Below, piece by piece: positions 13,652-21,925 of a stretch of 21,925 nt of DNA. The stretch is taken from the NCBI GenBank assembly GCA_007117235.1, contig SKGY01000121.1, positions 1 to 21,925 on the forward strand. The letters are read 5' to 3'. Each line of letters opens with the position of its first letter. The first letter of the stretch is position 1. Origin of the DNA: Balneolaceae bacterium. GTDB taxonomy: Bacteria > Bacteroidota > Rhodothermia > Balneolales > Balneolaceae. A program made the translations under genes and the position numbers. The notes under the pieces are model-generated. The model searched no databases, was not told the origin of the DNA, and saw nothing but the letters and a program-made list of their open reading frames with translations.

Positions 13652-13799
13652 AAAGTTATGGTTGTGTCTAAATTTTTTATTAAATAGTTACAGTCAAGAT
13701 CAGAATGTAAACAATTATAAGCCTCAAAAGATGTTATTAAAGTTAAAAGCGAAGAAATGAAATTGCATCAATTTTGATTCTTTAAATAAAGATAAGCTT

Positions 13800-20394: not shown

Positions 20395-20942
20395 TTCTGC
20401 AGCTGCATTACCTGATCAACAAATGCAGGAAATCCTTCTAATTGACTCTCCAGAAGTCCCTGCAAAGTTTCATTACTTAAACCTTTTTCAGGGTCAAAGG
20501 TTGAATTTACCCGTTGTATAAACATTCTCTCCGGATAGATATAAGCTTTTCTATATTTTAAAAGTTGTTCAAACTGTTCAACCGGTCTTAAAGCCCCAAA
20601 TGCACCTGCAGCTTCACCAATCAGGCTAACGGGCCTTTTTTCCATCGCTTCGGGAAATGGTAAATAGTCAAAAAAGACTTTTAGGATTCCCGGGAACCCT
20701 CCATTGTATTCGGGAATTACGAACATGTAACCGTCTGCATCCAAAAACTCATCGTTAAATAATTTAACTGTATCTGGAGTATCTCCATATTTACCACCAT
20801 GCAGATCTTTTAGAGGGTAGTCTCTCAATGTGAAGAGTTTTGTTTCTGCATTTTGTGAAAGTATGGGATCAATGTAATTGGTAACCTTCCAGGCATTAGA
20901 GCCTTGCCGGTCTGTTGATGATAGTACGTGAATTTTAGGCAT
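20391..20942 (-). CDS. NAD(P)H-dependent FMN reductase (flavodoxin-like fold)
   Basis: A 183-residue cytoplasmic protein of the NADPH-dependent FMN reductase family (azoreductase/chromate-reductase-like). The FMN phosphate loop is SSTDRQGSNAWKV at 8-20, and the isoalloxazine-contact motif PEYNGGFPG at 77-85 is the classic signature. LIGEAAGAFGALRPVEQF (107-124) is the usual next segment, in which related enzymes bind the flavin ring. The physiological substrate is not predictable; quinone, azo compound or metal reduction is possible. The gene stands alone, convergent with the response regulator (4-bp overlap of the 3' ends), with no intrinsic terminator visible between them. The start ATG at 20942 directly precedes the first beta strand (PKIHVLSS). 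Confidence 0.88.
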   Translation of the reverse strand: MPKIHVLSSTDRQGSNAWKVTNYIDPILSQNAETKLFTLRDYPLKDLHGGKYGDTPDTVKLFNDEFLDADGYMFVIPEYNGGFPGILKVFFDYLPFPEAMEKRPVSLIGEAAGAFGALRPVEQFEQLLKYRKAYIYPERMFIQRVNSTFDPEKGLSNETLQGLLESQLEGFPAFVDQVMQLQN

Positions 20943-21053
20943 TTACTTAAGTCAGATTTTGTTTCTTGTTTTACTATCTAAACAACATCATTTCTGATAC
21001 CATTCAAGATTAAATTAATTTCGTGATGTTATCACCAGAAAGTTTTTTACTTA

Positions 21054-21069
21054 AAAAAAGCGCTTTTTT
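21054..21069. repeat. AT-rich palindrome with GCGC centre
   Basis: Six A, GCGC flanked by A and T, then six T form a perfect 16-bp palindrome, with two more T-A pairs outside one mismatch (21051-21072). It lies in the spacer upstream of the flavin reductase and about 70 bp upstream of the candidate small-RNA promoter. It could be a DNA-bending protein site, or a weak bidirectional terminator since it yields A/T-rich flanks both ways. Confidence 0.35.
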
Positions 21070-21120
21070 AAAACATATACTTAACTATGATATGTAGTAT
21101 GATCAAAAAGCTTAATTTAA

Positions 21121-21153
21121 TTTGAATAAGTATTAATTTGACCCTATCATTTG
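21121..21153 (+). promoter_or_regulatory. Candidate promoter for the small RNA
   Basis: TTGAAT (21122-21127), a 17-bp spacer and TATCAT (21145-21150) form a good sigma-70-like match. Read with the Bacteroidota consensus, TTTG (21121-21124) and TATCA-TTTG (21145-21153) differ from TTTG...TAnnTTTG by one extra base. Either reading places the transcription start at about 21157-21161, right where the first RNA hairpin begins. Confidence 0.45.
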
Positions 21154-21156
21154 GAA

Positions 21157-21260
21157 GATTTTTGATTGAAAAATCAAAGAGCTCATGTTATGGTAGACAT
21201 CGAGCAATAGCTCCAATACTTATCTTGCCCGGAATGGACAATTCCGGGCAAGTCTTTTTT
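21157..21260 (+). ncRNA. Candidate small structured RNA, ~104 nt
   Basis: The + strand here has no protein gene, yet it shows an ordered set of RNA-like structures. Hairpin 1 (21159-21180) is a 9-pair stem including one G-U, closed by a GAAA tetraloop of the stable GNRA type. Hairpin 2 (21181-21205) starts at the very next base: GCTCATGT pairs with ACAT-C-GAGC, eight pairs with one bulged C and an 8-nt loop TATGGTAG. An 18-nt unpaired linker (21206-21223) contains AGCTCC, which could pair with a GGAG-type ribosome-binding site. Hairpin 3 is a 12-bp intrinsic terminator ending in six T. A promoter-like sequence ends a few bases upstream. It does not show the conserved sequences of SRP RNA, tmRNA or RNase P RNA, and the length and layout do not fit 6S RNA. 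Transcription is predicted, not shown. Confidence 0.5.
21224..21260 (+). terminator. Strong intrinsic terminator, + strand
   Basis: A perfect 12-bp GC-rich stem, CTTGCCCGGAAT (21224-21235) with ATTCCGGGCAAG (21241-21252), has a GGACA loop and is followed by TC and six T. On the minus strand, which carries rarA, the hairpin is followed by ATAAGTATTGG with no T-run, so it is polarised to end + strand transcription. No + strand protein gene ends within 800 bp upstream. Confidence 0.88.
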
Positions 21261-21283
21261 AAAGAGCCATGCAAATACTCCTA

Positions 21284-21925
21284 TTACTGATTCTTCTTTT
21301 TAACCTCTTCAAGCCGCTGCCACAAAGAAGGTTCTCTGCCCTGATTTCCGGGTCTATACCATTTAGTATCGGTCAGTCCGTCAGGCAGATATTGCTGAGC
21401 AACCCAGTTACCGGGAAATTCATGCGGATATTTATACTCTTCAGAAGCATTTTTCACATCCATATACCGCGACGCTAATTTGTTAGCTGTCTTATCTTTT
21501 AGATGAGACGGCACATCTCTGATGCCTTTTTCAGATATTTCAGCCTGTACATCAAAGATGGCTTTCGTACTGTTACTTTTTTGAGACATTGATAGAAAAA
21601 TGACAGCATGTGACAGAAAGTAAAACCCTTCAGGCATTCCCGATTTTTGAAATGATTCATGGGCTGAATGTACAACGGTAAGTGCGTAAGGGTCAGCCAT
21701 ACCAACATCTTCAAAAGCAAAACGCAGCAATCGCCGAAATATGAAATTTGGGTCTTCACCTCCTTCCAACATTGCACTCATCCAGTATAGGGCAGCGTCA
21801 GGATCGGACCCCCTCATTGATTTAATAAAAGCTGAAACATAGTGATAGTGCTCATCTCCTGTGCGATCATATCGCACGCTTCTTCTTTGAATCGACTCCT
21901 TCGCAATTTCAAAAGTTATTTCAAC
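21284..21925 (-). CDS. rarA: Replication-associated recombination protein A, C-terminal part
   Basis: The frame is open to the right edge: upstream of the GTG at 21877 the codons encode ESIQRRS, the natural continuation of the conserved sequence, so the gene extends beyond the window and its AAA+ ATPase core is not visible. The 213 residues seen match the RarA/MgsA C-terminal region: a SxxQRRxVRYDxxGDEHYHYVSAFIKS-like segment, then MRGSDPDAALYW (20-31 counted from that GTG), MLEGGEDPNFIFRRLLRFA, EDVGMADP and HEFPGNWVAQQYLPD. This part contains the tetramerisation and DNA-binding helical domain. RarA is a clamp-loader-like ATPase acting at stalled replication forks and single-stranded/double-stranded DNA junctions. 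The stop lies 31 bp from the orphan + strand terminator hairpin. Confidence is high despite the truncation. Confidence 0.95.
   Translation of the reverse strand, partial: VEITFEIAKESIQRRSVRYDRTGDEHYHYVSAFIKSMRGSDPDAALYWMSAMLEGGEDPNFIFRRLLRFAFEDVGMADPYALTVVHSAHESFQKSGMPEGFYFLSHAVIFLSMSQKSNSTKAIFDVQAEISEKGIRDVPSHLKDKTANKLASRYMDVKNASEEYKYPHEFPGNWVAQQYLPDGLTDTKWYRPGNQGREPSLWQRLEEVKKKNQ

Follow-up and report, generated by a model that had tools for sequence, protein, structure and literature searches.

A conserved intergenic small RNA candidate in Balneolaceae with a hairpin loop complementary to the leaders of ammonium- and amino-acid-metabolizing enzymes

Introduction

Small RNAs tied to nitrogen or central metabolism have been described in several bacterial groups. 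The cyanobacterial RNA NsiR4 has an NtcA site at -41.5 and gifA as a target, and two distinct, mutually exclusive forms of it are reported in the part of that paper used here (PMC6316151). For the targets of GibS in Bacteroides, blocked translation is the proposed outcome in the sections of the report drawn on here (PMC7366714). The main text of a review of nitrogen-related bacterial noncoding RNA (PMC9170634) contains none of the terms glutamate dehydrogenase, alanine dehydrogenase, amtB, gdhA and Bacteroid-. A literature search on Balneolaceae together with small RNA, with most subscription papers lying outside it, found no paper, and among the matches listed for Rhodohalobacter none concerned small RNA by its title. 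The RNA described here may therefore be the first of the base-pairing kind in the Balneolaceae for which a regulon is predicted.

The locus lies in a contig of a Balneolaceae bacterium (GCA_007117235.1, SKGY01000121.1), analyzed here as one stretch of 21,925 nucleotides and referred to as the window. An earlier note on this DNA had proposed a regulatory RNA with three ordered hairpins, its own promoter and terminator, and a linker that might pair with ribosome-binding sites.

Results

Architecture of the locus

The candidate occupies an intergenic region between two minus-strand genes. The left, divergent neighbor encodes an NADPH-dependent FMN reductase with its start codon at 20942, and the right neighbor is the C-terminal part of a gene bearing an MgsA_C domain, which we take to be rarA by name, with its stop at 21284. 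Between the two genes, no plus-strand frame of at least 80 codons was found. The promoter, two hairpins, linker and terminator that had been proposed were all recovered in place, and the features are as follows.

21056..21067, no strand assigned: palindrome AAAAGCGCTTTT, putative operator, centered about 95 bp upstream of the predicted start
21121..21150, plus strand: promoter with TTTGAAT (-35/-33 region) and TATCAT (-10), from promoter scan and alignment
21157..21260, plus strand: small RNA transcript of about 104 nt with a predicted start, from fold and conservation in relatives
21159..21180, plus strand: hairpin 1, a variable 5' leader hairpin, from fold
21181..21205, plus strand: hairpin 2 with one bulged C, from fold; 99.1% of cells paired over 8 pairs
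21184..21218, plus strand: near-invariant 35-nt core CATGTTATGGTAGACATCGAGCAATAGCTCCAATA, comprising most of hairpin 2 and linker, from alignment
21187..21196, plus strand: GTTATGGTAG, loop and top of hairpin 2, proposed mRNA-pairing seed, from its complement in leaders
21206..21223, plus strand: unpaired linker AATAGCTCCAATACTTAT, from fold and alignment, first 13 nt nearly invariant
21224..21260, plus strand: intrinsic terminator with a perfect 12-bp stem (21224-21252) and a T tract, from terminator scan and covariation

The segment 21157-21260 has a minimum free energy of -37.6 kcal/mol against -19.5 +/- 3.3 for shuffled sequences (z -5.46), and none of 200 shuffles folded as well. The terminator stem is followed by TCTTTTTT, its T run lies on the plus strand, and it is the sole terminator in a 501-nt stretch in which 0.1 would be expected. 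The same stretch holds two promoter-like sites against 1.9 expected, so the pattern TTGAAT-17-TATCAT at 21122-21150 is weak by itself. TTTG and TATxxT-like elements are retained in most alignment rows of homologous loci. As far as sequence features go, the intergenic region thus carries both the promoter and the intrinsic terminator by which a stand-alone small RNA is recognized.

A scan of the window with Rfam 15 gave no match above any gathering threshold, which agrees with the proposal that the RNA falls outside the known families. At E values up to 10, seven matches fell within 21000-21290, all with E of 1.4 or worse; the 6S RNA covariance models did not reach threshold and were absent even from these weak matches.

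Conservation in relatives

When 92 family genomes were searched with the DNA sequence and duplicates were removed, 28 distinct sequences were left. The long matches came from the same genus and a few sister genera and mostly began at hairpin 2. The genus of the window is apparently Rhodohalobacter, and both R. halophilus (L036) and R. sulfatireducens (L085) carry the RNA. The 35-nt core is unchanged in 22 of the 28 sequences and has one to three changes in the other six. In the terminator, 10 of the 12 pairs show changes on both sides, with 98.2% of cells paired. Hairpin 2 is far more static: five of its eight pairs never vary, and the changes seen are three from A-U to G-U and one double change from A-U to G-C (L031). 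Covariation, a mark of structured base-pairing small RNAs, therefore backs 10 of 12 pairs in the terminator and only one of eight in hairpin 2. An FMN reductase gene was found within about 1.5 kb in 26 of the 28 loci, the exceptions being L004, at a contig end, and L009.

The 5' leader before the core behaves differently from the rest. It ranges from 6 to 41 nt among the 28 loci, and with starts fixed from the -35 element and four leaders shorter than 12 nt left unfolded, only six (L003, L005, L006, L007, L015 and L025) reach a fold more stable than that of 95% or more of the shuffles, and their leader sequences differ. Hairpin 1 was accordingly rejected as a conserved element, and three ordered hairpins are not the conserved plan. 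The earlier note had accepted that its proposal would fail if both hairpins varied among relatives and the terminator alone was kept; hairpin 1 does vary, but hairpin 2, its loop, the linker and the terminator are all conserved.

A covariance search of related genomes, which had been suggested as a check, used a model (R1) built from the 28 distinct sequences, with a strong match defined as E of 4.2e-17 or better. Strong matches occur in 29 of the 92 family genomes, with one copy in each, and comprise 25 of the 28 genomes of the genus of the window and four in three sister genera. Under stricter filters, a search of 128 genomes of the order gave no further strong match. In the distant family member G089 a weak match (L126, G089:C81:198-288; E 1.2e-4) could be a diverged homolog or chance. 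In the genomes searched, the RNA family is thus confined to one genus, apparently Rhodohalobacter, and three sister genera. The 28 distinct homologs with their conserved -35 and -10 elements, upstream box, near-invariant core and covarying terminator lend good support to the proposal of a trans-acting, stand-alone small RNA with its own promoter and terminator.

An upstream palindrome shared with amtB

The core of the palindrome, AAGCGCTT, is present in 28 of 28 distinct loci, and in all of them a TTTG follows 52-57 nt further on; eight of the 28 have a second TTTG in the 39-69 nt range. Elsewhere in the family, this box is likewise found ahead of the FMN reductase gene. Because the gene across the box reads by eye as an ammonium transporter start in five loci (L061, L062, L076, L081 and L089), the amtB family was searched in the genus. 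It was found in 21 of 28 genomes, and the box is present at 17 of the 24 amtB loci, in every one of these 17 at 52-55 nt before a TTG-type -35 element.

The 12-mer AAAAGCGCTTTT occurs two to nine times per genome in 28 genomes, against zero to two for the reversed control. Of the 149 box sites counted in the genus, 59 were annotated. Ten lie upstream of TonB-dependent-receptor-like genes (two scanned, SusC/RagA type), with the box inside an upstream frame at L130 and L188; three precede PEP carboxykinases (pckA; one scanned), and there are single cases such as GAPDH (gap). At nine paaA-like genes (L131, L133, L197, L198, L214, L218, L224, L242 and L246; one scanned as PaaA) the 12-mer adjoins the start codon at 0-1 nt, and the gdhA-1 leaders of the genus mostly carry CAAGCGCTTCCA or a near variant beside the start codon. 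A literature match to the box string was, by title, a soil-metagenome paper.

The box also precedes SusC-like receptors, so the regulon spans carbon as well as nitrogen functions and is not purely nitrogen-related. At its place near -95 the box would serve to activate amtB and the RNA, and at the start codon it looks like a repressor site for paaA and gdhA-1; both signs are read from placement. The palindrome is centered on CG and in this recalls LacI-family operators.

A sister RNA form behind the same box

Gracilimonas and Balneola relatives carry another RNA, R2 (L066 3619-3754; also L054, L057, L059, L063, L067, L072 and L073). It resembles the window RNA in its comparable place, upstream box, hairpin with a conserved loop, CTCCAA linker and terminator, but its stem is longer and its loop is different (GGTTGGTTAGGC, with GGTTGGTTAGG conserved). 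An R2 covariance model matched strongly in 14 of 92 genomes, none of which has a strong R1 match. Weak cross-matches occur in both directions: R2 in the R1 genome G056 (E 2e-4), and R1 in G074 and others, among them the R2 genomes G022 and G026. Rfam scans of two R2 loci (L066 and L059) and of the R1 locus L017 gave no match. R2 replaces the R1 RNA in sister genera, and on the basis of shared place, box and motifs the two forms are likely, though not proven, to be homologous.

Two observations concern genes around these forms. A leader at C1:1247379 of the R1 genome G042 (L342) carries CCTAACCAACC, the complement of the R2 loop, and the R1 loop complement is found at a related FAD-oxidase gene in G068. 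At L401, L403, L406, L407 and L409, all from R2 genomes, a AAAAGCGCTTTT-type box lies upstream of the glutamate dehydrogenase paralog GDH-2 itself.

The hairpin 2 loop complement in mRNA leaders

Occurrences of 8- to 10-nt words that complement the core were tallied over leader windows from -60 to +10 in G042, a relative with the RNA (97% complete; 2.0 of about 3.6 Mb scanned). Only one of the 33 10-mers stands out, the loop complement CTACCATAAC, with four sense and no antisense copies against 0.2 expected; it alone among 3150 permutations reaches four (mean 0.125), a statistic to which a correction for 33 windows applies. Shorter words were less distinct: for the 9-mer TACCATAAC, with five copies, seven of 1260 permutations were as good or better, and for the 8-mer ACCATAAC 11 of 280, each count including the word itself. 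Some 8-mers from other parts of the core were raised too, among them TCGATGTC from hairpin 2 (6 against 1.6 expected) and one from the linker.

Across eight genomes, CTACCATAAC was matched 71 times, eight of these being the RNA itself; 51 of the other copies were examined and 12 were left out (one in G059, two in G063 and nine in G068). Genome-wide the word is rarer than its reversed control in all eight genomes, so only its placement is unusual. Twenty of the 51 examined copies are in sense and 12-39 nt ahead of a start codon. In an orientation test on 45 copies, 15 fell in sense leaders, counted as 8-50 nt before the start of frames of at least 100 codons, and none in antisense; the remaining five of the 20 are three in GDH-2 leaders and two in G042.

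The genes behind these leaders were named by hmmscan of one or more members each. GDH-2 is represented in six of the eight genomes. Acetyl-CoA acetyltransferase, 2,4-diaminopentanoate dehydrogenase and a sugar-nucleotide-type SDR, presumably threonine-dehydrogenase-like, appear in two genomes each, and alanine dehydrogenase, glutamine synthetase III, gdhA-1, an FAD oxidase and a lipoprotein-like gene (judged by eye) in one each. Several targets thus occur in no more than two of the eight genomes, and where there are two these are mostly G042 and G043, which are apparently closely related. AmmeMemoRadiSam B, found in three genomes, was set aside as a clean target because the site is confounded by the coding sequence of the upstream gene, whose conserved 3' end the three sites may reflect. 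The gdhA-1 gene was likewise set aside as a conserved target, as the G042 site is not conserved and the leaders of the genus mostly keep the CAAGCGCTTCCA-like box.

Predicted duplex energies were a poor discriminator: genome-wide, 5 of 25 shuffles matched the loop and 16 of 25 matched the linker, so the linker was not separated from shuffles and the loop only weakly. As the loop never varies, no compensatory change could be seen. Within the window, the loop complement shares only 4 nt with the leader of the usp gene, which the earlier note had named as a possible target of the linker. The pyruvate kinase leader of the window (13655-13662, minus strand) carries ACCATAAC, an 8-nt loop complement, 11 nt before the start; the leader of its G042 ortholog is without it.

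GDH-2 leaders as the best predicted target

GDH-2 leaders were compared between genomes with R1 and genomes with the sister form. In the 19 R1 genomes, the longest match to the hairpin 2 complement is 9-13 nt in 11, 6-7 nt in five and 4-5 nt in three; G050, G075 and G079 share 5 nt or fewer. At least 9 nt are therefore shared in 11 of 19 R1 genomes against none of 11 sister-form genomes, in which at most 6 nt are shared. None of 2000 permutations of the query exceeded eight leaders (mean 0.064), although the leaders are related by descent, so this test overstates significance and the numbers are supportive rather than exact. Predicted duplexes average -12.3 kcal/mol in R1 genomes and -7.8 kcal/mol in sister-form genomes (Mann-Whitney p 0.0017). 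By comparison, the linker complement shares at most 7 nt with GDH-2 leaders in either group, and nothing above 6 nt is shared with the R2 loop complement. Two leaders show variation in detail: in G061 the 13 nt are kept but shifted towards the stem, and in G057 there is a change that would leave a G-U pair. An exposed, conserved seed complementary to mRNA leaders, a further feature of base-pairing small RNAs, is thus predicted here, with the complementarity incomplete in 8 of 19 GDH-2 leaders. Given the box found upstream of GDH-2 in R2 genomes, this gene may answer to the box in one clade and to the RNA in the other.

The linker and a reading without loop pairing

The earlier note had proposed that the linker AGCUCC pairs with GGAG ribosome-binding sites. 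As the main mode of action this is unlikely. Leaders in G042 are rich in A from -14 to -10 and show only a faint rise of G between -12 and -8; GGAG precedes 14 of 274 starts, against 3 of 274 further upstream, and TTGGAG precedes none of the 274; and among the linker-complement words, none of 9 or 10 nt is enriched in these leaders. A part of the proposal survives in the GDH-2 leaders, in which GGAG occurs within the last 25 nt in 8 of 19 R1 genomes and 6 of 11 sister-form genomes, which is commoner than in general (14/274, over a slightly different interval). Its presence there means that the linker CUCC could make a 4-nt contact, and a short second contact beside the loop is possible.

These same features could be read in another way, namely that a conserved small RNA acts mainly through protein binding or through its linker, and that CTACCATAAC in leaders is an unrelated mRNA or DNA element. 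In the 28-sequence alignment, the linker is conserved about as strongly as the loop, yet only one linker-complement 8-mer is enriched in G042 leaders (CTATTGCT, 4 against 1.3 expected). The sister form also has the CTCCAA linker and a GGTTAG loop resembling the GGTAG found here, and GGAG, with which the linker could make contact, occurs in GDH-2 leaders of both groups. With up to two mismatches, the linker complement occurs at 5-20 sites in each of 13 genomes, against 2-13 for the reversed control, and is commoner than the control in 12 of the 13, the RNA of each genome itself adding one. Against this reading, the one enriched leader 10-mer is the exact complement of the loop, its copies in leaders were seen in one orientation only, it appears to lie after the promoter of GDH-2, and it is missing from the 11 GDH-2 leaders of sister-form genomes. 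We consider this reading unlikely, and pairing through the loop remains the preferred reading.

Coding and antisense readings of the core

The core also contains a six-codon plus-strand frame (ATG GTA GAC ATC GAG CAA TAG, 21190-21210), and conservation could act at the protein level on the very short peptide MVDIEQ. The frame is open in all 28 aligned sequences, and one of the three changes within it is synonymous (ATC to ATA, L004), the other two replacing a residue (ATC to ACC, L031; CAA to AAA, L030). However, third codon positions are nearly frozen and the flanking bases equally invariant, the A-U to G-C double change keeps hairpin pairing, and six codons would be unusually short, so we regard this reading as very improbable. 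An antisense or 3'-end regulator of the convergent rarA is just as improbable. In its favor, rarA was found in 26 of the 28 distinct loci at a distance of up to about 1.5 kb, and a read-on rarA message would contain the complement of the RNA. In L017 and L025, however, no rarA match was found within that distance; the RNA stops 23 nt short of the rarA stop codon and has a conserved promoter and terminator of its own; and a near-invariant core is more than antisense pairing requires, since both strands then change together.

Discussion

Taken together, the locus probably encodes a trans-acting small RNA that is co-activated with amtB and whose loop pairs with the leaders of ammonium and amino-acid enzymes, most plausibly repressing them; this assignment is built on comparative sequence analysis. 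We infer a noncoding transcript of about 104 nt that would begin near 21157. Its transcription is probably activated by a regulator that binds the AAAAGCGCTTTT palindrome, some 95 bp upstream. Since amtB has this box at almost equal spacing, the cell probably makes the RNA alongside amtB as it switches on ammonium scavenging. The predicted seed is the hairpin 2 loop, GUUAUGGUAG, which would pair with CUACCAUAAC a short way upstream of the start codon in mRNA leaders, foremost in that of GDH-2. Alanine dehydrogenase, 2,4-diaminopentanoate dehydrogenase, thiolase and glutamine synthetase III may be further targets in some species. With the duplex no more than about 40 nt from the start codon, ribosomes would be kept from entering and less of the enzyme would be made.

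A broader proposal, which we hold in even balance, extends this to the Balneolaceae: a nitrogen- or carbon-responsive activator would drive amtB and the RNA from the same operator distance, the loop would silence ammonium-handling dehydrogenases where Shine-Dalgarno sequences are little used, and the two exclusive RNA forms would parallel those of NsiR4 independently. The operator, RNA, seed and target leader together offer a directly testable circuit for ammonium assimilation in salt-loving bacteria. The locus also illustrates a way in which small RNAs may work in bacteria that have few Shine-Dalgarno sites.

Three described systems invite comparison. One is a small RNA from the 3' UTR of glutamine synthetase mRNA, which we take to be GlnZ. 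Like the window RNA as proposed, it links nitrogen state to a central metabolic enzyme, but it is processed from the glutamine synthetase mRNA in Enterobacteriaceae, whereas the window RNA has a promoter of its own (PMC9731577, in the part used here). GibS of Bacteroides thetaiotaomicron is likewise an intergenic metabolic small RNA, from a related phylum, that pairs at the start codons of metabolic genes; in the sections of its report drawn on here, it is about 145 nt long and largely unstructured with the seed in its 5' part, whereas the window RNA is shorter and its proposed seed is a hairpin loop (PMC7366714). A block of translation, the outcome proposed for the GibS targets, is also the most likely one for the window RNA. 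The comparison with NsiR4 is one of descriptions, based on part of its report (PMC6316151): the window RNA differs in having another palindrome, near -95, and dehydrogenase leaders as predicted targets, and it resembles NsiR4 as a stand-alone small RNA of a nitrogen-type regulon, conserved over many genomes, connected with ammonium assimilation and occurring in two forms.
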